NCBI GenBank assembly: GCA_964017235.1
Contig: OZ024935.1
Span: 91,201,207-91,265,206 of the forward strand
Source of the DNA: Sabellastarte sp. h YS-2021
Lineage: Eukaryota; Annelida; Polychaeta; Sabellida; Sabellidae
Length of the DNA: 64,000 nt
Direction: 5' to 3'
Shown: piece after piece, positions 291-59,032 of the stretch
Layout: each line of letters starts with the position of its first letter
How positions within the stretch are numbered: position 1 is the first letter of the stretch
Translations under genes and position numbers: made by a program
The notes under the pieces: model-generated
The model's database searches: none
Told to the model about the DNA's origin: nothing
Seen by the model: the letters and a program-made list of their open reading frames with translations, nothing else

Positions 291-1021
291 ACAGAGAGTG
301 CTGCAAACATTTTGAAAGTGTATTATATTTAAGAATTTTCATGGCTTCACATTAACGCAAGTTTAATTTGTTTTAATTAAAAATTTACTTAGATAATCTT
401 GCAGATAATTCACTTCTAAATGCTGCTGTTAACTTGTTTCATGTGCATGTTAAATATGTGTGCACATTGCCATATTGTTTTCCTCAAAAACCTCTGTGGC
501 CAGTTTCACAAAAGGACTTCGCTGCACGCTTAACAGGAAAACAAATTGGTTTAACTTCTCCTTGACCTCTCAACTATTGGTATTTAATATGATATAACAG
601 GCCAAAATTTCTGATTGCTTTTTTCACAAGGACATTTATTTACCCTTTTTGAACAAGGTACAAAAGCACTTGGAGGGGCGAGAGTAACTAATTTCATTTT
701 TTACATGTGTTTTTCTTGCTAAAGTTGTTGTTATGTTTTCTATCTTGTTGTCTTTGTTGTGAAACATGTGTCATCTGTGTATCCATGTATGTATAAAGAA
801 ATAAATAAAACAAAGAAGAGACATGCCTTAAAATCAAAAAAACATTCATAATTTCTAAAAATGAATTCTCAAATGCTTGTCATTTTATGTCATATGACAG
901 AATCCTGATGTATTGTTCTGGTCTTGTGTCATCTGTGTCATCAACTCCTGTTAAGCCACAACACCAAGAGTGATGCTGAGGTTTTGATCTATATGTATAT
1001 GAGACTATATGAACAGCTTTC

Positions 1022-1231
1022 TGGGGGCCATGGTGGCACAGTGGTAGCACACTCACCTCCCAGCTATGTGGGAAAGATGGTAGTTTGTTACCGATGGTCG
1101 GCAGTTTACAGTACAGAACCTTGACCAACTGTATCTACTTAGTCTAGTTTCCTCTGCTCATAAAACTACCCGTCGCGATATGACATACACAGTGTTGAAA
1201 GCGATGTTAAAACCCAAATAAACAAATAAGC
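1022..1231 (+). mobile_element. SINE family A, internally deleted
   Basis: A tRNA-like head (GTGGCACAGTGGTAGCACAC) is followed by the family body (GGTCGGCAGTTTACAGTACAG, then CAACTGTATCTACTTAGT) and an AAATAAACAAATAA tail. Compared with the copies at 2011 and 18301 it lacks the stretch holding the B box. Short ORFs across it on both strands are incidental. Confidence 0.8.
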
Positions 1232-1612
1232 TTTCTGAAGTTACAGGACATCCACATCGGTTACTCTATAAAGATAGAGATCTGAAAGAATAGTTACCAG
1301 TCTTGGACATGGGTGTAGGTGTCAATTCCATACATTACTATACATTCTATCTTTGCTACATTTCAATAAAGTGGGTTATTTCTTCATTTTTGCAAAGATC
1401 TACCTGGGATGAGAAATGGAGTTGCCTACCTTTATTGTAATAACTGTGCTGAATCCAGGCAACTGTAAACAATTGAAAGTATCAGGAAAGTGAATATTGC
1501 TGTTGATGTGAAGAAAGTTATCGAAAATAAAATTATTAAAGTTTTATGCCAATTTGGTGAGCTGACTACACATCCATATGACATTTCAACCCATGATGTA
1601 GACTAGCGTATA

Positions 1613-1908
1613 TGGTGGCACTGTAGCCTAGTGGGTAACACATTTACCCTGGAACCCAGAGGTCCTGGGTTCACTCCCAGGTACAGGCATATACACAGTA
1701 GCTTGGATGACCATGGCAGGTCCTATCCCCAGTGGCAGGCTAAAGAACCCAAGGTATGTTGATATATAGGCATCCCTGAGACTCTTTCAGTTTGGGAATG
1801 CCAGCATCTAAGGAAGCTTGGGCCGTAGTTGTACAGTTGGGAAGTGAAATGGTACTTTGAGTCTTGTATTAAAGGAGAAACTACAATGAGTATAAGTATA
1901 CAATACCA
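1613..1908 (+). mobile_element. SINE family B
   Basis: A Pol III A-box-like TAGCCTAGTGGGTAACAC and a B-box-like GGTTCACTCCCAG start a body with the diagnostic words TATCCCCAGTGGCAGGCTAA and TTGAGTCTTGTATTAAAGGAG. The same body recurs at 29062 (+) and, inverted, at 17395, 42153 and 61779. Confidence 0.75.
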
Positions 1909-2010
1909 TACAGTATGAATCAATGACAGATTTCAATGGAAAGTAACCCACATTATTAGACATAAGGAAGCCCAAATAAGGGCTCTGTGTTTAAACTTGT
2001 ACTAATTAAT

Positions 2011-2252
2011 GAGGGGCCACAATGGCACAATGATAACACACTTGCCTCCCACCTCTGAGGTCGGCAGTTCAAACCTGGATCTTATGTGGGAAAGTTGGTA
2101 GACTCTTACCGATGGTTGGTAGTTTACAGTACAGATCCATGACCAACTGTATGTACTGGTTTCCTCTGCTAACAAAACTACCCATTGTGATTTGACCTGT
2201 ACAGTGTTGAAAGTGACATAAAACCCCAAATTAGTAAATAAATAAATGTACA
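2011..2252 (+). mobile_element. SINE family A, full length
   Basis: Head GAGGGGCCACAATGGCACAA, B-box region GGCAGTTCAAACCTGG, body GGTAGTTTACAGTACAG and the tail words GACCTGTACAGTGTTGAAAG then AAATAAATAAAT. The A box is somewhat decayed. Confidence 0.85.
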
Positions 2253-3092
2253 AAGTTATGATGAAAGCAGTATAAATCCTTTCTAAAGACATGCATTTTA
2301 AAGTAAAGAAGGACAGCCACTAAGTATGTACAGGCCAAAGTAAAATTGTCTGACATTTAACAGTCCCTTGAAAAGGGTGCTTAGCTGGTTATGGATCTGG
2401 GTTTATGCCTGTAACCACCACATTATGGTCTTTCACTAGATACAAATCATGTGTTATGTTAGTTTTCCTGGCACAAGTCATTGCAGCCTCCTGAGCTGAA
2501 CATTAGGGAGGCCTTAGATGGCTGTTCCACTGTGCCAAACCACCCACCTCATTTTGGTTAAACTAGGCATTAAGGAGGTCAATTGTTTCATTAGGGAGGC
2601 TTTGGAACCAAAATTCTGGAAGGTTCAGCAGTTAATCGTGTTTTCTTGATAAATTGAAACTGTTTAAATTGGTCAAAAATTTTCTCCTTTCTTTTTCAGA
2701 CCTAGCATTCGGGCTGTGAATCCTTAAGCTATCCTAACATTTTTAAAGCAGTCTTTTTAATCTTAAGTCAGTTGTAGTGATCATGTGGGCCTTTTGTAAG
2801 GTATGTAACCCATTTAGGATGATTTGGTAGATGATTGGGAAGGAACGGGAACCAAGTTGAAGGTTTTAAGAGCCAAATGCTCAGACACCTCATTACCTGT
2901 GGTTATGAGCTACAAGCCCAATTTGCAGCCAGTTTAAACTTGTTCAAGTTGGGAGACAAGGTATATCGAACTAGTGGAACAGTCGCTTTACACTGTATTG
3001 TGGAAATGGAATTGGGGTATAAATAAAATAATTCTTGCTTTAGCATCCACCACTAGCCATATTTGACCTGAATACCATCATGCACAGACCCA

Positions 3093-3330
3093 GGGGAGGA
3101 GGGGGGAACGGTAGAGCAGTGGTAATACACCTCCCACCTCTGATACTAGAGTTTGGATCCCCCTGTGACCACATGTGGGAAAGCTGGTAGTTGCTTACCT
3201 TTGGTCAGCAGTTTACAGTACAGAAATTTGACCAACTAAAAGTACTGGTTTCTTTTGCCCTTCCAAGTACCCATCACAATATAGCTGATAAGGTACTAGA
3301 CGTGATGTAAAACATTAAATAAACTGAACA
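3093..3330 (+). mobile_element. SINE family A, diverged
   Basis: It starts in a G-rich stretch, then GGTAGAGCAGTGGTAATACA, a degraded B box (GAGTTTGGATCCCCC), the body GGTCAGCAGTTTACAGTACA and a short AAATAAA tail. It is older than the 2011 copy, judged by substitutions. Confidence 0.75.
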
Positions 3331-4256
3331 TGTAAAGACCGGAACATTATTAATTTGTTATATTATTCTGTGCCACTTATTCTGTGAATAATTGGCCATA
3401 CAAATGGGTGAACAAGTGCTGATTTCCGTTGTTATTACATTAATTACATAAAAATGGATATACACATGCAAAAATATATCACTCTTGAAGATAAACAATG
3501 TTACACTGTCACCTTCATCCGTGACATATATTTCGTACTAATATAAAAACTAATATAAAGTCAAAATGTTTTTTTTTGCACATTTAAGATAAGTTTAATA
3601 AATTTCACATCATATTTTAAAACATACCCCCTATCAATAAGCTACAAATTATATTTGGTCTTTCAAGGTATTTGAAGTATAATAATAATGTAACAATAAC
3701 ATTTTGAACAAATATCTTCAGTTATATGTTTTAAAATAAATGGGTTACATCATTTCAGAAATTTGTACCAACCATAGGTTTTACAAATGTGTTCTTTGTC
3801 AGATCATTCATGAGAAATCGATAAATTTTGATACATATATTTTACTAGCATTGCTCATGGCTAAATTTGTAGCATATTTTTCAAGCATGTACTCAAATAG
3901 CAATCCTACATGCCAGGAGATATAAGCTCATTAAACTAAAATTATTTTAATAGTATGCTGTTGATAAAAACCAGTACATGCAAGAGTACATTACATGAAG
4001 TCCCTAATTTCAAAAAAAAAAAAAAAAATCAATCCTTCAGCAGGGCTAACATGTTCCATCAATCTGTAGGTTTTACACCGTATATTAAAATATAGGCCTA
4101 CAAACTGTAGGAATCCTTCTGGGCTTCTTTAACATTTTCATATGCATACACAACAGTAACATGACATATGAGATAAGTGAAAAAAAAACAACTTTAAAAT
4201 TTAAAAAGAGCAAAAAAAACCCCATTTTTTTGTTTTAACACTTATTCCTTCCATGC
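3331..4256. other. gene-poor AT-rich stretch downstream of the precursor gene
   Basis: No convincing exon, SINE or TIR pair is seen. An A-run sits at about 4012-4028. Short ORFs here have no recognisable domains. Confidence 0.5.
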
Positions 4257-4262
4257 TTTATT
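4257..4262 (-). promoter_or_regulatory. poly(A) signal AATAAA of the precursor gene
   Basis: On the minus strand AATAAA overlaps the TAA stop codon (4258-4260) of the precursor gene, and a second near-signal, AATAAG, lies a few bases further on. An overlap of stop codon and poly(A) signal means a very short 3' UTR. Confidence 0.45.
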
Positions 4263-4418
4263 TAATTTGAATTATTTTTGTCCGGTGCCAAATTGATGAG
4301 AACATTCTCTTAGATGCTGAATTTCCAAAAGGGGATAGTCCAAAAGCAAGCAGAGGATGTCGGCAACAAGAATAGCATCCACCAGAATAAGGATGGATAT
4401 GGTGATAGGAAGGTAAAT
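4258..4418 (-). CDS. secreted Cys-rich precursor, exon 3 (terminal)
   Basis: Last coding exon of the minus-strand gene whose other exons are at 6445-6904 and 44370-44418. The acceptor is a polypyrimidine run followed by TTTCAG just above 4418. Exon 2 ends with one base of a codon, and joining it to this exon gives GAT, then an open frame of 52 residues to TAA at 4258. The frame reads LPSYHHIHPYSGGCYSCCRH, then a KR dibasic site before MFSSIWHRTK. A different frame of the same DNA is also open and membrane-like, but it does not fit the phase of exon 2. The Cys cluster (C-x2-CC) and the KR site suit a processed peptide precursor. Family not recognised. Confidence 0.55.
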
Positions 4419-4674
4419 CTGAAAAAAAAATGAATTTTTTTTATTGTTTTTGAAAGAAGTCATGGTTATTTGTGAACTTACTACAGGTAACAATACATTC
4501 CACTCACTTGTCCCCCAACTGTATAGTTGACAGATAAAATTAGAATATTTTAATCATTTTGAATTATATTTCAATGAGAGACACACTTCACCACCATTGG
4601 GAATGGGTAGTAAGTTTAAGATAAATAAATATAGGCATTCTTCTAACAAACTTTAAGACTTTTTTTCTAGTTTC

Positions 4675-4900
4675 ATTACCGCCGCCCAGGAGGTATCATT
4701 TTAATCGCCGTTTGTTTGTCTGTTCATCTGTATGTCCGTCTGTTTGTGTGTCTGTTAGCAGGCTTACATAGATACTACTAGTTGGAACTTCATGAAAAAA
4801 ATCAGAGCGTAAAATGTTTTGGCCCAACTTAGATCACATTAAATTTTGAGACAGATCTGGATCAGTGACTGGATAAAATCGTACTTCCTAAAACATTTAA
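4675..4900 (+). repeat. dispersed repeat with CCnCCCAGGAGG-type end
   Basis: It starts ACCGCCGCCCAGGAGGTAT, followed by a GTTTGTCTGTTC-rich stretch and then words on the theme of GATCTGGATCAGTGACTGG. It matches the fuller copy at 42462-42905 in order of motifs and is a decayed member. Confidence 0.5.
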
Positions 4901-6444
4901 CAATTCATTGTCACATTTTCCAATTTAAAAATTTTGAAAGTTACAAATTTACTGCGTGACAAGGTACCCTCATAGAATACCAAAAACATCAGTGTAAATA
5001 TCTGTGCTTGAAAATTAAGTGAAAAGAAGAAAAGAAAATATCATAAAAAGAATTAAAAAGTGAAAATTAAGTGTTTTCATGAAACATCCTACATGTTGTG
5101 AACAAAAGATGATATAAAACCAAAAGTAAAATTCAGAGGAGGTAACCCAACCTTCACCAGGTAAACAGGAAAGAGAATATACAAAGAACAGATCAGCTGT
5201 TTAAAAACACTTTATGAATTGTTGGTAAATGTACATAGTTTAGTGCAAAATTGAAAAATACAGAATATATTTAAAATATCCTTTCAGCTTTTCATATCCA
5301 ATTAATGAGTTTGTGGTTTACTTCAGCGTCTACTGCCATTCCTCCACCAGATACGGTTGTAGTTTCTGAAGACCTTGTTGTTGTTGGGTCTTTTATTTGG
5401 CCCTCTCCACCACACTCGGTTGTATTTGCCGGAAAGACCAGATCTCTTGGACGGAGAATCTAGAACAGCAGAGTTTTTAGCAATCTTTTTTATTTTCTAT
5501 TTATTTTTGTTTACATATGCAGGGAAAGTATATTTGGTAAAACTCTTACTGGTTGTATCAAGTATGCCTTTTTTTCTGTTTGTTTGCAAAATGACTTAAT
5601 TGTTAATGATGTAGAAGAAATTTTCAGAATTTTGTCGCTATCCGGATCACCGGATTCAGGAATTTTCTAAGTATTTTATTATCATTGCACTCTTAAGCAA
5701 TATCTGAGGCATTGGGCCTTGGCAGACGTTTGCAACCTCTGAGTGCCATCACAAATTTGATGGGCTCTTTTACAGTATTTTAAATGTGTAGTTTAGAAAA
5801 TATTCTTATAGGTTTGGTTCATTCTTGTTTAAATGCTAGTTTTTAATCTTTCAGCCCCCAGTAGACCTTTTCTTAAGAAACAACTTATGTGCTTATCAAT
5901 AGCTTTTCCCCCTTGTTTGACTTCTTGAGTATGGGTATTAAGTCAATGTAAGTTTGGAATTAAAGTACTACTTTAAAACATTCTCACTTTAAACATGCAT
6001 CAGTAATCCACAGAAATAGCGCTAAATACCCATTAAGGGGCAACAAATGCAAATCCTACAATGATTGTATCAATAATTAAACAGTTTACAGAAGAAAAGT
6101 AGTTGATAATTTTTTTTCTAAATGTGCTTTTCCAAATACATGCCATAGTAATTAATTAGTACACCTATCCGTCATAATCAGATAAGAGAGTGCTTAAACT
6201 TAAATTTTTACTTGTACATGTTATTCCCTTTGGGAAGTGATGCTTGTTGCCTCAAGTTTGGTTCTATTTGTAGAAACTTTCCTTATGACAAACTTTATAT
6301 TTGTCTTTATATTTTAGATCAAAATTGTTTGAACTAAGAAAAATGCACTTCTATTTATGACAATCTCCTACTTGGTACATTTATACTTGTGCCAAACCTA
6401 CTGTGCAATGGTAGCGAGACATAAACATTAGGAAAATTACTAAC
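4901..6444 (-). other. intron 2 of the precursor gene
   Basis: This is most of the intron between exons 3 and 2 (4419-6444). It holds the decayed repeat at 4675 and otherwise no recognised element. A plus-strand ORF at 5375-5599 has no recognisable domain. Confidence 0.5.
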
Positions 6445-6904
6445 CATAACTGTCTGGATAGTCCAGCAACAAGTCCAATCCATTTGCTCCAGAATCATTA
6501 TTGAGTCTGTCCCCACCTCTGTATCCTTTTCCCATGCCCCCTTTCCTTCCCAGGGCTCTGTGTAGTGTAACCAAACCGTTACCCTGGCCCCTGACATCTT
6601 CTTGAGCCATCTGCGCTTCATCTGCAACATCTAGTCCAACTGGTAAGAGTTCTTCAACATCATCCAGTTCATCGAGAAGCTTCAGACATTGATGTTGAAC
6701 TTCTAGGGTGTCACAGCAGTTGGCTGCGGATTCAGATTGCATGAAGTTGAAGCACCGGCCACACATCCTGTTGATGACGTCACTTCCTGTGCAGATAATT
6801 GGCTCATCATCAATTTGATTCATGTTGTTCATGTTGCTGGTGTTACTGACAGCTTCAAAGGGGCATACATACAGCATGTGTAGCTGAAGAAGGATGACAG
6901 CTAT
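6445..6904 (-). CDS. secreted Cys-rich precursor, exon 2 (main coding exon)
   Basis: The acceptor reads TTTTTCTCATTCCAG just above 6904 and the donor is G|GTTAGT below 6445. The exon is open for 153 codons plus one base. It begins in phase 0 with IAVILLQLHMLYV, which completes a hydrophobic N-terminus begun by exon 1. Next comes an acidic and Asn-rich stretch, then a six-cysteine module: C-x9-C-x2-C-x11-CC-x8-C, around MCGRCFNF and ANCC. An acidic Leu-rich segment follows, then a Gly-Arg-Lys (LHRALGRK) that would be read as an amidation plus dibasic cleavage site, then a Gly-rich part. Together this is the layout of a neuropeptide or peptide-hormone precursor. I do not recognise the family. 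Another reading is a small secreted Cys-rich protein without processing. Confidence 0.7.
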
Positions 6905-6999
6905 CTGGAATGAGAAAAATATATGTTTTCTTCATGAGGTTTGGTGAGGTATTTGAGAAAATATTCTGACAGCTTTAAAGTATGGAATAAAGTTTTTGC

Positions 7000-7773
7000 A
7001 GTAGCTATCATCATATTAATAGAGATCTCCTTCAGCAGAGCTTACACATTGGCCTGCAATGGCATCGAACCCACAACTTCTTAGGTATGAGCAAATGATA
7101 CTTCAATTATCTTGATATCGATAAAATCGGAAATATGTAATAAATTCAAACTTTAACTGATTGAGATCACGACAAGTCATGCTAAGTAGGCTATCATGTA
7201 ATTTGTTATGTTAGACCAAGGATCACTACCTGGTGGTCAATGTGGACAAAATGCTATCCCCACCAGACACCAGACCATAAACTCTTTGTGCCTCATTGGC
7301 TCTGACATATAGCAAAGCAACCATAGCAGTCTGGAAAACGGATCCAACTAGATCTCAATTGAGTTTCAGTTTCTGTAATCTTTTTTGTTTCTATTTTGGT
7401 CTTTCATCTTATAATTTATTTTTTTTTTCTTGTGGGATTACCCATGTCATTACTCACTACTTAGATTTAAATTACTGTTAAAGCATCACTAGTAAAGTCT
7501 TAGTGAATACATTGTTGAGGGACCAACTCACAAGTTTGTGTTATTTTTAAATTCTTAATGTGGGACATACTAGTATCTGGTTACCTGAACAGAACAGTAA
7601 GATAAGGGTTTCGGGCAAAAAAGGCAACATGTTAAAGTGCATTTAAAAGCACCCATCCTACTGACAACTGTGATGCTAAATTAAACATCCTGGCAAAATC
7701 AAAGGTCACACAACACCTCTAACACCTTCAGAAGAATATTGGGGCCAAACCGGACTTGTTTTTGAATAGCTGA
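7000..7773. other. intron 1 sequence without recognised element
   Basis: AT-rich. I see only a short ORF (7296-7481) with a T-run, no domain and no splice context. Confidence 0.5.
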
Positions 7774-8229: not shown

Positions 8230-9400
8230 GTGGCAATATATGTCATAAATTTCATTTGATTCTTTTGATCGGAGCTTTTTCTGTTACAACTGTCCAATAT
8301 GTCAAACAGTCAGCTGATAAGTTAGGTCACGAAACTGTGCTGCTGTCGATTAAAAATGATGCCCATCTTGCTCTGGCTAGAGGTGAGGCCACTGCTGTTG
8401 TGCTGCTTGACCAATCGGCAGCGTTTGATATGGTTGATTATGGCACACTCCTATATTGTTTGAGTTCTTGGTTTGGCATTGGCTCTATCCTGTCTGATGC
8501 AAAGAAGTTCTTGTTTAGTGTGTCTCAGGGCTCTGTCTAAGTCCAATACTCTTTTCCTTGTATACTACTTCCCTCAGCAAAGTCAGTCAAAATCATCCCT
8601 GCATTGGTTTCCACTTTTATGCAGATGATACACAGTTATATGTTCATCTCACACAGAAGAATTTGGCTCATACTTTTGACCTGTTGAAAAGTTGCTTAGA
8701 TGATGTCAAAAAGTGGTTGTCTGCAAGTAGGTTGAAGCTAAACCCAGATGAAACTGAATTCACTCTTTTTGGTTCAAATATACAACTTGAAAAATTCAAC
8801 AAATCTTTCCAGCTAATATTCTTGGTAATTTCCTCTCTCCTGTGGGCGTGGTCAGAAACCTTGGTGTATGGTTTGATAGTGATTTTCCTTTTTGAGGCAA
8901 GTCCAGAATATATGCAAGTCCTGTTTTGTTCAAATCAGGGATCTTAAGCATCTCAGAGGTTATCTGACACGTCATGCTGCTCTTATGGCTGCGAATGCTT
9001 TGGTTAAGTCAACTTGAATAACTGTAATTCCTTGTTTACGAGTCTCTCAGCTCTTATCTTCCTAAGCTGCAATGTGTTCAAAATAGACTGGCTAGAATTG
9101 TTACCAACATCACTAAGTATTCACACGTCACTCCTGTTAGAAAGACTCTCCATTTTTTGCCTATTGAAAACCATTCCATATTCAAGACTGCCTTACTGGT
9201 TTACAAGTTCTTACATAGTGATTATCCAAAATATTTTGTACCTTTGCTTAAACAGAGAAATAGTGTTTAAAACACACATTATATCTCAAGTTAATGATTA
9301 CAGTTTTCTGCGTTTTTCTGTTTGGTGAGCCTGGAGTCTGTCTTTAGATGGAGATTAAGCACCATAAAAATACTATTAGAATTAGAAATATGTTTCACCA
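8230..9400 (+). pseudogene. CR1/L2-like LINE, 3' part with broken reverse transcriptase
   Basis: Frame-broken reverse transcriptase. The frame at 8256-8540 has SADKLGHETVLLSIKNDA and GEATAVVLLDQSAAFDMVDY, the RT palm region with the first catalytic Asp in AFD. The frame at 8558-8947 carries the catalytic YADD box (FHFYADDTQLY, Tyr at about 8618) and then the KSCLDDVKKWLSASRLKLN region. Further frameshifts split the C-terminal half (RGYLTRHAALMAANAL; then RLARIVTNITKYSHVTPVRK; then IFKTALLVYKFLHSDYPKYF). The 3' end, TCTTTAGATGGAGATTAAGC and an ATAAAAATAC tail (about 9335-9385), matches the LINE ends elsewhere in the window. The 5' half, with endonuclease, is missing. The order of motifs fits non-LTR elements of the CR1/L2 group; the exact clade needs a tree. 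Confidence 0.85.
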
Positions 9401-22012: not shown

Positions 22013-22189
22013 GCGACCGCGCACACGCTTTCTGTGTCTAGACTGGTTGGCTACTGAGAGACGTGTGTCACTTACTAATGGGGGGTTTTCAGTTTTTTTA
22101 CATTTCACATTTTACTTGAGTTAGGGCAAATTTAACAGATAGGAGACACATTTCAGTTTTTTTACTTTTTTGTGATAGTCACTGGAGTT

Positions 22190-23319
22190 ATGAGGAAAGA
22201 GAAAGGAGGAAAGAGAGGAAAGAATAAAATGGAGGAGAGGACACAGAAAAGGACAGAGGAGAGGACAGAGGTGGGTACAGAAGACAGAGAAAAGAGGATA
22301 GAGGATACAGAGGAAGGTTTAGAAGTTACTGAGGAAGCTTGCGAAGAAGATGAGAGGTGTGAGGAAGAATCAGAGTGCCACTCAGCAGCCAAGACAGCCA
22401 GGGTTTGTGCTACATTCACTGACAGACAAGAAAATGCCATTGTTGAGTTTGTGAAGGAGCACCCGGAGCTGCATGACAAGGAGCATGGACGTTTCCATGA
22501 CAGACATAGGAAGGAGGCTCTCTGGGCAGAAATCTCTGCAGAACTGAAGCTCCAGCCCTTTGATGTCAGAAGGTGGTTTGAGTCACAGAGAACTCGTTAT
22601 GACAAGCTCTCCAAGCTACAGTCTGGCCAAGCCCTAAGGGAGATGACCAATAGACAGTCCTGGGTCTACCAGCAGATGGGTTTCCTTAAGACCCACATCA
22701 GACGGAAGGGGGCCAACAGAAGCTTCGGGTTCGAGGCAGTCCCAACACCAGCAGGCATGAAGAATCGCATGGATCTACTACTGATACAGAACATCTTGAG
22801 TCCAGTGTCCTGAGGGAGAGTAGGAGTCAACCATTTGTTACATCTACACCAGTTTCTACAGATTCCAAGATACTCGAGCACTTTGACCAGATGAGGACAC
22901 TGATCTCAGGTTTCCTGCAGCAGAAGTCAAACAGGCAGCCCTTCTTTGACTACATGGCATCAGTGGCTGAAAAGATGACCCAAGAGGAGTTTGACAGGAT
23001 TTGTAGAGACATTGAAGCAGTAAAGAACACTCATAGACATCATGTTCTATCCAAGAGATCAGCCGCTATTACCAAAGAGTCACAGAGGGTCGGAATACTG
23101 CCAACAACCACTCAACAGGTGTCTAGTTCCACCCAGGCAGCAGCAGGCAGCAGTTCCAGCAGTTATGTCTACTACACACCCAGCCCCATTGGCTTTGGAA
23201 ACCCTCCATCATTGCTCACAGTACAGGACGAGGGCAGCAGACACAGCTTAAGTGGAATACTAAGCCAGCAACCAGATCCAACAACAACACAGATCATTGA
23301 GCAGCCTCAGCAGCCATAG
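22190..23319 (+). pseudogene. MADF/SANT-like DNA-binding protein gene with one frameshift
   Basis: The ATG at 22190 opens MRKEKGGKRG and a long Lys/Arg/Glu-rich leader. About residues 82-146 form a MADF-type (Myb/SANT-like) domain: AIVEFVKEHPEL, EALWAEISAEL, VRRWFESQRTRYDKL. The frame stops at 22813, but the next frame is open from about 22700 (TSRHEESHGSTTDTEHLESS) into 22891-23319. That part has SNRQPFFDYMASVAEKM and then a Gln/Ser-rich tail, as C-terminal partner regions of MADF proteins do. One single-base change near 22700-22745 would explain the break. MADF/Myb proteins are the second gene of PIF/Harbinger transposons, where they bind DNA and bring the transposase to the ends. The break may be a mutation or an assembly error. 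Confidence 0.7.
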
Positions 23320-53323: not shown

Positions 53324-53686
53324 GTTAAAATAAGCTTATCATTTATATTATTGTCAAAGAAATAGTGCTTAGAATCCAGGCTGCACTCATGTTGAAGTCA
53401 ATAGGTCAAGAGGCATAAAGTGTAATCAACCTCTATTGTATTGAACTAGAAATCACCCAAATATCTACAATAATTTGTAAGTTTGTGGACACACATGCAG
53501 CATTCTATACTAGTAGCAAAACTATTTTGTGCAACCTGAAGAAAGGCCTACCATAACATGGAGGTTGGGTTCATAATTTGTGGAATGTTTTTTCAAAGTT
53601 TTGGGACATTTTTATGAGTAAATGTATTCAACTGAATCTTGGACATTGGTAAATAATTCCATTGTATTTTGTTTTTGTTTTTTTAG

Positions 53687-54278
53687 TGGCACACGTGCTG
53701 ACAATAACCAAGAACAGCCTCTGGTGATAGTAGAAGGACGCAGAGGATATGGATCAGATCTTGTATTCCTCTACTGGTTCCATCCAAACATTTCGGACTC
53801 TACCGGTGATGCTCATTTCAAATTTTCCAATGCCAGTCCACTGACAGTCTACTATTTTGCTTACCAATTCATGCTGTCCCCTGCACATATCGACACAAAG
53901 GAATTGCCTGATGGAGTGCTGCAGCAGGTCCTTACCGCCATCGAGAAAGGTAACAGACGGTATGATAAACTGTATCCTGATGGACAGAAAGAATTAACAC
54001 CAGAAGAAACACTGCAAGCTTGGATGTCAGATATCAGCATGAAAACAGTATCCAAGTACCAAGGCACCATTGCTCTGCGTGAGACACTGTTTCAGTGGAT
54101 AATGCACCTGAAGTCAGACCAAATTTTGTTGATCTTCCGCAAAAAACCATACAAAGTGCTAAGTGTAACATGCACTGCTGATCCGGAAGCCGTATGCATG
54201 TTTGACTCACAGTTGCATATAATAAATAGCGTAGTAGCCCGTGGAGCATTTATGTTTTACTGCAAAAAACAACTACAG
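53687..54278 (+). CDS. unknown gene, large exon
   Basis: Acceptor TTTTTGTTTTTTTAG and donor CTACAG|GTAATT bracket 592 nt open in one frame. It reads SGTRADNNQEQPLVIVEG, GSDLVFLYWFHPNISDS, then a mostly helical-looking stretch (KELPDGVLQQVLTAIEKG; LTPEETLQAWMSDISMK) and ends VARGAFMFYCKKQLQ. Base composition is richer in G+C than the flanks and codon use is coding-like. It is the longest credible host coding stretch after the precursor exon 2. No domain is recognised; no transposon hallmark is seen. The following coding exon is not certain. The exon ends in phase 0, and the terminal exon at 56861 would add only Thr and a stop. Confidence 0.65.
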
Positions 54279-54639
54279 GTAATTGCTACAATGGTGAACA
54301 AATTTGAATCCATTTGCTTTAAGATCATAGGAGAGTGTCAATTTATACTCCTGCAGAAAGAGGAGCATATCCAATAGGAGAATTAGTAACATGACATATA
54401 TTTTCATATTTGATTAACAGAGAATACAAATATATTCAATTTGAGTCTGTATTTGTGTGTTCCTGAGGCATAAAATTTAGAATTTTACATTTTGCAGAAG
54501 GTTTTTTTTTGCTTTAATTATCTATCACTTTCAACAAATAATTAGTTAAAATTAAGTCAATATTATACCTCATGGTTTTCTGCCATTTTAATTATTCTAA
54601 TGGAACTAAAACGAGTACTTGTTTACTCAGTGATAAGCC

Positions 54640-54722
54640 TAAGCCTTTCTGGGAGGCTCATTTAACCTAGAGATTGTCTTTAGATGGAGATTAAGAGCTA
54701 CAAATATACTCTTAGATAAAAC
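54640..54722 (+). mobile_element. LINE 3' terminus
   Basis: GATTGTCTTTAGATGGAGAT then TAAGAGCTACAAATATACTC is nearly the same as the LINE end at 9335-9385. Confidence 0.6.
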
Positions 54723-56860: not shown

Positions 56861-56919
56861 ACATGAACGTGTGGGACAAAGCTTTAGCTTTATTCTAGTC
56901 ATGTCAGAAGCAGATTAAT
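56861..56919 (+). CDS. candidate terminal exon, cut by the YR element
   Basis: Acceptor TTTGTCTGCAG, then ACATGAACGTGTGGG. The three frames stop after 1, 12 and 19 codons, so it would give only a short C-terminus and the start of a 3' UTR. The exon sequence stops at 56919 and resumes at 58901 after the inserted element, then runs to AATAAA at 59027. From the phase-0 donor at 54278 it would give Thr then TGA. Confidence 0.4.
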
Positions 56920-56920
56920 C

Positions 56921-57133
56921 AATACAAAATTGGGTTTTGAACCCCACCATTTCACTTTCCATACTTTCCGGCGTTCAGGAGCCACACTGGCCTACAATGC
57001 TCATATACCAGTAAGGCAGATCAAGAGGCATGGCTCCTGGACGTCGGATTGTGTGTGGACCTACATCCAGCAAGATCAGGCCTATGGGGAAAGGATTGCT
57101 ACTTCCTTTGCTGCTATGCTTGATAATGCTTGA
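56921..57133 (+). pseudogene. tyrosine recombinase, C-terminal fragment
   Basis: The frame reads KLGFEPHHFTFHTFRRSGAT, with the H-x-x-R motif (His at about 56960, Arg 56969), then QIKRHGSWTSDCVWTYIQQD, which has the second His/Trp and the nucleophile Tyr (about 57062). It ends normally with TGA after SFAAMLDNA. Catalytic residues of the C-terminal half are intact; the N-terminal half is missing. The family recombines DNA through a 3'-phosphotyrosine and integrates circular element DNA. A Crypton-type source is the main alternative, but the repeats downstream favour a retroelement. Confidence 0.75.
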
Positions 57134-57156
57134 TGTCCTACCCTAAGTTTGGGCTT

Positions 57157-57800
57157 GGGGTTCTTTATCTGATATATATATTGCATCTTTTATAATCCTG
57201 TAATTGTATAAACTGTTATAAACTAATCCTTATTTGTAAATATTAATTAATGTGCAGTAACTGCCTTAATCTCTCAGGTTTCATGGTGTATCAGTCATCA
57301 TAGTAACAATGTCATTACACTTCCTTCATATATCAGTACCTTATGGCAGGTACTTTAAGAGTACTTTATTATTTCAATGTCCAAGTTAAATCTATAAGTT
57401 TCTATCAAAAAGTCACTCTTGGCCCCATAGGGGCCTTCTGGTGGTTAACACTATTTCATTGTATCCTTGGGCCAAAGGTCCTGAAACAACAACTAAGGTC
57501 ATTCACCATCATAAATCAAGTAATTTATGGTGTTCAGGTAATCTTAGCCCTAGTAGAACCTCTCCTTTAGTATTAATTTGACTATGTAGCATGTGATAGT
57601 AATGTCACTGGCACTAATTGTCGGTGGTTAATAAGTAATGGCCAATGCAACTTGGTCAAGTGTGTTATACCATGTGTATGTGTTATCTAGTAATATACAT
57701 GTTTTGGACTGTTACATATTTAGTAGTCTCATTTATCCTTGTGTATATGAATAAACTAATACCCGCATGCTGGTGTTTCTCTTGGGGTGGTGGGGGCCTG
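57157..57800 (+). repeat. direct repeat B1
   Basis: It starts GGGGTTCTTTATCTGATATA and ends GGTGGTGGGGGCCTG. An ORF (57343-57570) is identical in B2 but has no domain and need not be coding. Confidence 0.9.
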
Positions 57801-58219
57801 TCATTAGTGGTGTCAGGGCACCACGCCTGTCAGGCCTCCACCCCAGGAGACAATAATTGAGGGCCACCTTAAGCCCTAGTGGATAGAAGGTTAGATGCTG
57901 AAATGGGTCATGCGGGTCAGGTCAGTGTAGTTTACCCTGGTTACCAGGGTCATCCAATAACAGAGGGCCTGGGGTTCCAATGAAATTCCTAGAAGGGCAA
58001 ACTGTTCAGTTTGAATCTAGAATTTGAAAGACATGCAAGGAAACACAAATTTTATTTCCCTCCCACCCTTCCCACTTTGCTGGATTTTACTATTTTATGG
58101 TTTTAGCAGTAACACATTTTACTTATTTTAACTTATACCTTCATGTTAATTGTCTGTGTACACAGTTGTACATGCGGTGGTTTATCCTATACACATGGGG
58201 TGGGGTTCTTTATCTGATG
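57801..58219 (+). repeat. segment A2 between B1 and B2
   Basis: It starts TCATTAGTGGTGTCAGGGCA and ends ATGGGGTGGGGTTCTTTATC then TGATG, so the first 17 bases of the B repeat occur twice in a row at the A2/B2 junction. Confidence 0.6.
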
Positions 58220-58866
58220 GGGGTTCTTTATCTGATATATATATTGCATCTTTTATAATCCTGTAATTGTATAAACTGTTATAAACTAATCCTTATTTGT
58301 AAATATTAATTAATGTGCAGTAACTGCCTTAATCTCTCAGGTTTCATGGTGTATCAGTCATCATAGTAACAATGTCATTACACTTCCTTCATATATCAGT
58401 ACCTTATGGCAGGTACTTTAAGAGTACTTTATTATTTCAATGTCCAAGTTAAATCTATAAGTTTCTATCAAAAAGTCACTCTTGGCCCCATAGGGGCCTT
58501 CTGGTGGTTAACACTATTTCATTGTATCCTTGGGCCAAAGGTCCTGAAACAACAACTAAGGTCATTCACCATCATAAATCAAGTAATTTATGGTGTTCAG
58601 GTAATCTTAGCCCTAGTAGAACCTCTCCTTTAGTATTAATTTGACTATGTAGCATGTGATAGTAATGTCACTGGCACTAATTGTCGGTGGTTAATAAGTA
58701 ATGGCCAATGCAACTTGGTCAAGTGTGTTATACCATGTGTATGTGTTATCTAGTAATAATATACATGTTTTGGACTGTTACATATTTAGTAGTCTCATTT
58801 ATCCTTGTGTATATGAATAAACTAATACCCGCATGCTGGTGTTTCTCTTGGGGTGGTGGGGGCCTG
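58220..58866 (+). repeat. direct repeat B2
   Basis: Near-identical to B1. The visible difference is TAGTAATAATATAC here against TAGTAATATAC in B1. Confidence 0.9.
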
Positions 58867-59026
58867 AGCTTTATTCTAGTCATGTCAGAAGCAGATTAAT
58901 ATGTCATAAAGAGTTTTTAGTTTATGCTTTATATTTTACTATTTATCCCAACTTTTACTATGAAATTTATGTATATTTTATTATTATCTATGAATGAGTG
59001 TGAACACACTATGTAAATGTATCTGA

Positions 59027-59032
59027 AATAAA
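59027..59032 (+). promoter_or_regulatory. poly(A) signal AATAAA
   Basis: CTGAAATAAAGTACC followed by a T-rich stretch, downstream of the exon sequence that resumes at 58901. It is consistent with the end of the plus-strand gene. Confidence 0.5.

Follow-up and report, generated by a model that had tools for sequence, protein, structure and literature searches.

5'-Truncated Ngaro-type elements with target duplications recur in a Sabellastarte genome

Truncated copies that carry target duplications are a recurring class in a family of Ngaro-type tyrosine recombinase (YR) retroelements whose full copies, where tested, lack them. Duplications abutting the element were found in five of six delimited truncated copies (34, 35, 27, about 10 and 9 bp) as against none of seven full copies. 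The starting point was the window, the whole stretch of 64,000 nucleotides analysed here (C11:91201207-91265206 of the genome of 1.786 Gb that was searched), for which an initial annotation had described a single odd copy inserted by a non-canonical route. The pattern is not confined to that copy, and the counts support the idea of a non-canonical route. On balance, the copy in the window is probably a recent insertion of an incomplete Ngaro-type reverse transcript at a staggered target cut, reached by a side route beside the integration of circles by the YR.

The copy in the window consists of the C-terminus of the YR followed by B1, A2 and B2 (Table 1). Nothing of the element lies upstream of the YR C-terminus and, in agreement with the 5' truncation proposed before, only the positions 5815-7741 of the full copy from C14 (L055) are matched. 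The H-x-x-R recombinase C-terminus noticed initially is present in the frame 56888-57133, and the YR fragment gave a Pfam Phage_integrase match with an E value of 0.0018 and 18.5 bits, under the cut-off of 27.1. The two near-identical repeats around a 419-bp segment were also found again, with lengths of 644 bp (B1) and 647 bp (B2), and their alignment, suggested earlier as a measure of age, contains a single 3-bp indel and no substitution over 644 aligned bases. Because B1 and B2 show no substitutions over this length and because the 34-bp duplication is perfect, the insertion appears to be young. The coordinates given initially for the exact 34-bp repeat on either side were correct; it abuts both element ends and its score was reached by 0/2000 shuffles of the right flank. 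A genome search, which passes over very common words, located the 34-bp sequence at two places only, both at the window locus. As it is found at a single locus and is missing from the flanks of full copies, the 34 bp were ruled out as element sequence and are host DNA, that is, a real target duplication. A second haplotype of the window locus was also considered and rejected, the left flank having no other place in the genome, the 34 bp itself excepted. An AATAAA, from which the initial annotation had derived a putative terminal exon of a gene, is located at 59027-59032, 3' of the right copy of the duplication, and a nearby frame of 251 amino acids (53622-54377) had no Pfam match. Elsewhere in the window, an open frame at 22136-22810 has a MADF/Myb-SANT-like DNA-binding domain (PF10545, E 2.3e-10).

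Table 1. Features of the window and element copies of the genome (anchored matches are given with the number of shuffles that reached them).
Feature	Position	Strand	Basis or remark
5'-truncated Ngaro-type element, 1947 bp	56920..58866	+	97% identity to L055 5815-7741
Target duplication, left copy, 34 bp	56886..56919	.	exact match to 58867-58900
Tyrosine recombinase C-terminal fragment (last ~70 codons), H-x-x-R at 56960-56971	56920..57133	+	frame 56888-57133
Repeat B1, 644 bp, end = ...GGGGCCTG	57157..57800	+	repeat comparison
B|A junction stem-loop; boundary CCTG|TCATTAG within stem	57777..57851	+	ssDNA fold -25.4 kcal/mol, z -5.7
A2 segment, 419 bp; first ~257 bp match A1 of full-copy 5' ends	57801..58219	+	
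Repeat B2, 647 bp, finishing at element 3' terminus, no poly(A)	58220..58866	+	
Target duplication, right copy, 34 bp	58867..58900	.	exact match to 56886-56919
B|A junction stem-loops	window 57777-57851; L018:1706-1780(-); L067:997-1071; L068:1283-1357		
High-copy LINE family fragments	window 8519-9390		
Related-looking LINE 3' end	window 54620-54720		
Truncated copy, window	window		anchored match 34/34; 0/2000 shuffles
Truncated copy, L025	C6:128.6 Mb		anchored match 39/41, first 35 exact; 0/2000 shuffles
Truncated copy, L033	C5:137.8 Mb		anchored match 23/27; 0/2000 shuffles
Truncated copy, L040	C4:41.4 Mb		anchored match 11/12, 9 exact, from 1 nt past CCTG (offset 1); 2/2000 shuffles
Truncated copy, L056	C7:16.6 Mb		anchored match 9/9; 5/2000 shuffles
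Truncated copy, L073	C5:147.07 Mb		no duplication in anchored test
Single-B complete-type copy, L005/L027	C18:84.02 Mb		
Single-B complete-type copy, L010/L029	C2:23.01 Mb		
Single-B complete-type copy, L016/L035	C11:75.05 Mb		
Single-B complete-type copy, L015/L036	C18:83.13 Mb		
Single-B complete-type copy, L013/L037	C4:14.49 Mb		

Full copies start with CATTAG and finish with ...GGGGCCTG, that is, with a terminal CCTG. The full copy L055 spans about 565 to 7741 in the order A1-ORF1-RT-RH-YR-B1-A2-B2, which bears out the Ngaro-type anatomy assumed from the truncated copy. When L055 was compared with itself, positions 562-821 matched 6693-6952 with 99.2% identity (3 chance bases included; A1 from about 565) and B1 (6051-6695) matched B2 (7097-7741) with 99.7%, so that the A2 segment does recur at the 5' end of a full copy with RT and RNase H, where it had been suggested to look for it, as an A1 of about 257 bp. 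Both RT (RVT_1, E 2.2e-10) and RNase H (RVT_3, E 9.3e-5) are encoded upstream of the YR, and the complete YR displayed, besides SAM-like N-terminal domains, a Phage_integrase match with an E value of 2.8e-5 and 24.4 bits, under the curated cut-off. The absence of a methyltransferase domain between RH and YR sets Ngaro apart from DIRS/PAT, and in L055 the RH frame ends at 5022 and the YR frame starts at 5066, leaving no room for such a domain. Judged by its sequence, the family has the Ngaro arrangement, with split repeats (A1...B1-A2-B2), RT/RH upstream of the YR and no methyltransferase space. It also resembles Ngaro-type YR retrotransposons in that its full copies lack target duplications (0/7 copies with both ends in the anchored test, lowest value 23/2000 shuffles), and it differs from them in the 9-35 bp target duplications of its truncated copies and in that five of the seven complete-type copies tested possess a single B and no A2-B2 (A1-ORFs-B). 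This single-B form would result from recombination of B1 with B2 and likewise from recombination between the two B|A junctions of a circle. A T precedes A1 at 12/13 independent 5' flanks (14 matched rows, two with a common flank being counted once). In published models, YR retroelements are inserted by recombination of a circular intermediate, and no target duplication results (PMC3266345). The full copies studied here fit this circle model and the truncated copies do not.

Copies were gathered by a similarity search with B2, two scans with 3'-end motifs and a search with the YR fragment, in which 40 of 898 candidates were scored, and all counts refer to copies among the matches listed. In the anchored test, the sequence that follows the terminal CCTG (offset 0-2) was compared with the one that runs up to the 5' truncation point and the score was set against 2000 shuffles. 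Six truncated copies of this one genome could be delimited, five of them found by B similarity and L073 by the terminal-motif scan alone. Whereas the copy in the window contains B1-A2-B2, the other five contain at most one B. The 9-bp duplication of the copy at C7 (L056) is the weakest because its left copy is partly element-like and because the stretch before the terminus is altered. At about 1185-1227 of L056 an A-rich sequence takes the place of the stretch from AATAAA to the terminus, before the final TGGTAGGGGCCTG.

Left out of the counts were two copies that had lost their 3' end (C5:8.22 Mb, after B position 584, and C14:57.8 Mb), three with a 5' end only (C18:72.0, C4:155.1 and C1:157.8 Mb), those with ends diverged or partly seen or with a duplicated flank (C18:30.2, C6:54.0 and C6:141.1/139.8 Mb), and seven 3' ends set aside for their 5' side (L057, L060, L061, L063, L064, L065, L069). 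Scans of L042, L043, L045, L050, L058, L059, L062, L066, L067, L070, L072, L074, L077, L078 and L079, which have coding sequence upstream and a 5' end mostly outside view, revealed no duplication. L078 and L079, which share a flank, show a 12/13 match 139 bp inside the element (0/60 shuffles) that abuts no 5' end and was not counted, and weak matches that likewise abut no 5' end were detected in L070 (9 bp, 3/60), L071 (4/60) and L062 (9 bp, 5/100). Longer upstream stretches of the copies at C2:46.3, C4:31.8 and C5:49.1 Mb contain no abutting match; the first has one internal 13-bp match, and only the last of the three has a recognisable A1 start. L068 is a B1|A2 junction, and L071, L075, L076, L089 and L090 were discarded because they cannot be recognised as copies of the element. 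The 3'-motif places taken up were those listed apart from six, at C1:47.30, C4:29.76, C1:46.34, C2:170.2 and C14:61.3 Mb and on C80.

All six truncated copies lack poly(A) and have the same terminal CCTG as full copies. An AATAAA of the element is located about 45 nt upstream of this terminus and is followed by GT-rich sequence, and for this reason an ordinary polyadenylated mRNA would probably lack the terminal bases, which argues against simple priming on an mRNA. A poly(A) RNA as template for the last bases is doubtful, and these observations favour a DNA end. In the DIRS-1 model, termini missing from the RNA are rebuilt off internal complementary sequence (PMC5633606). On the 5' side, about 3 nt are common to the junction and to the element at the truncation point in the window copy and in the copy at C5:137.8 Mb, and the junction at C6:128.6 Mb contains 3 nt of ambiguous origin. 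The window copy (56920) and the C6 copy (L025 1266) start within 2 nt of each other, at 5815 and 5817 of L055. The window copy differs from the copy at C5:8.22 Mb at 6/881 positions and from the C6 copy at 14/877, and the C6 copy, which stands apart, differs from the C14 copy at 13/878; despite their near-identical start, neither of the two is thus the nearest relative of the other. The copy nearest to that of the window, at C5:8.22 Mb, possesses an A1, and it is therefore unlikely that the two copies with the same start descend from one short family. An RNA structure behind the common start was considered and rejected, as none of four stretches around the start and at the 3' end folds clearly better than shuffles (z 0.99, -1.35, -0.25 and 0.55).

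A sequence of events that would produce such copies begins with reverse transcription, which would start at, or rebuild, the true 3' end of the element and then stop early. This end, the first to be joined, would either be primed at the target or attached to it at a cut with strands 9-35 bp apart, for which a host nick or some endonuclease are the candidate makers, and the ragged 5' end would be closed by end joining, as the approximately 3 nt in common at two junctions suggest. Target-primed reverse transcription would leave such a signature, as would the joining of a partial cDNA to a staggered break, and the normal route, recombination of a circle by the YR without a duplication, would operate alongside. 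Target-primed L1 insertions have been described as truncated, with duplications and with microhomologies where the 5' end is joined (PMC2912911). Incomplete transcripts at staggered cuts are favoured here because the capture of reverse transcripts at breaks mostly occurs without duplications and with loss of both ends, whereas target-primed L1 insertion shows truncation, duplication and microhomology. With 5'-truncated LINE insertions the truncated Ngaro-type copies share the 5' truncation, the intact 3' end, a duplication of variable length and a few common or extra nt at 5' junctions, but they have neither a poly(A) nor a repeat tail, the element showed no LINE endonuclease, and its usual mode of integration is recombination by the YR. 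A shortened 5' side is also known from Ngaro type 2b of Cafeteria; however, in the part of the source that deals with it, the shortening consists of deletions of about 2 kb over ORF1 and no target duplications are mentioned (PMC8547959). A literature search that did not include the original DIRS/Ngaro replication papers returned, from sources seen in part, no description of truncated Ngaro copies with target duplications. Against incomplete transcripts at staggered cuts stand the copy without duplication (L073), the common 5' start without an RNA-fold cause, the weaker 9 bp of the C7 copy, the AATAAA ahead of the terminus and the small basis of six copies from one genome, beside which many further 3' ends have a 5' side outside view.

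The joining point of the 3' end lies in a predicted structure of its own. The single-stranded B|A junction of the window is predicted to fold into a stem-loop (Table 1), the opposite strand reaches a z of -4.4, and the B|A junctions of two other subfamilies reach -6.1 and -6.6. Within the stem, the element boundary coincides with a T.T mismatch. Of the pair cells in five distinct junctions, 92.4% are formed, compared to 44-57% when the partner is slid and to a mean of 88% in row shuffles, of which 0/500 reached 92.4%. Two-sided pair changes number five (three outer, two inner), in a set of only five distinct sequences; because 71/500 shuffles reach five such changes, covariation alone is not strong evidence, and because the two inner changes are common to two related copies they may be one event. 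The stem-loop could be a candidate recombinase site, an attC-like single-strand site or a means by which cDNA ends are joined or circularised. Integron attC sites are tyrosine-recombinase sites that can fold into an imperfect stem-loop, and in this the junction would resemble them; action of the YR on folded single strands would here be hypothetical. The same literature search, with the scope given above, returned no description of a stem-loop at the B|A junction in the sources seen in part.

The recombinase might itself have made the 3' ends of the truncated copies. It would cut the B|A junction and join the 3' end to the target as it normally does, with an incomplete cDNA as donor, and the host would close the 5' side after a second nick, thereby creating the duplication. 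That the 3' end of 6/6 truncated copies falls on the B|A boundary, the joining site of full copies, that this boundary lies within a stem-loop found in several subfamilies, and that the window copy with B1-A2-B2 and five copies with at most one B share the same end are all in line with such a role. Staggers made by YRs are usually 6-8 bp, though, and here the duplications vary from 9 to 35 bp; moreover, the T found before A1 at nearly all flanks of full copies is present at the equivalent place in only 3/5 truncated sites. We regard a 3' end made by the YR as rather unlikely.

The initial annotation had named LINE machinery acting in trans as an example of another route; it would copy element RNA at a nicked target. 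Truncation combined with duplication is LINE-like, LINEs are abundant in this genome (a window fragment at 8519-8944 with RVT_1 E 1.1e-9 belongs to a large family with 6011 first-look candidates), and some retrocopies that L1 makes of non-coding RNA lack a tail, although these are usually truncated at the 3' end (PMC2912911). However, 6/6 truncated Ngaro-type copies have neither poly(A) nor a LINE tail and keep the element terminus intact, and the measured LINE family ends with ...TACTATTAGAATTAG, which does not visibly resemble the Ngaro terminus. For a rough control with this one family, whose copies are older and whose starts were set by similarity, 20 of 41 exact 3'-end matches were taken and 17 had a usable 5' start. 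Abutting matches were detected in 4 of the 17 truncated LINE copies (7, 8, 11 and 7 bp; at most 3/100 shuffles), and no match longer than 11 bp beat shuffles among them; in an unanchored scan, one of 20 LINE copies (L109) showed a 19-bp imperfect match above shuffles, away from the 5' start. LINE machinery in trans is thus not supported so far, appears less likely than the initial annotation had thought, and is in our judgment improbable. Finally, that extrachromosomal element DNA was captured at chance breaks, or that normal insertions suffered later deletions, the duplications being incidental, is very improbable, because although captured reverse transcripts do occur in break repair, with single cases of 4-bp and 10-bp duplications, and although L073 has no duplication, captures are mostly without duplications and truncated at both ends (PMC4516963), here 5/6 copies have a duplication and 6/6 keep the 3' terminus, and an abutting duplication cannot arise by later deletion.

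The integration of YR retroelements is still mostly a model, and the class of truncated copies fixes the position of the 3' joining point. Its recurrence suggests that cDNA of YR elements can enter chromosomes in ways other than circle recombination, and its signature (a truncated 5' end, an intact terminal CCTG and an abutting duplication) can be searched for in any genome with such elements. Tentatively, and with less confidence than is placed in the incomplete transcript at a staggered cut, YR retroelements may possess a second route in which the true 3' end of a partial transcript is joined to a target whose strands are cut up to about 35 bp apart; the YR may first open a folded, attC-like B|A junction in single-stranded cDNA. 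If true, this second route would leave long duplications and 5'-truncated copies, and a YR element would partly work like a target-primed retrotransposon.
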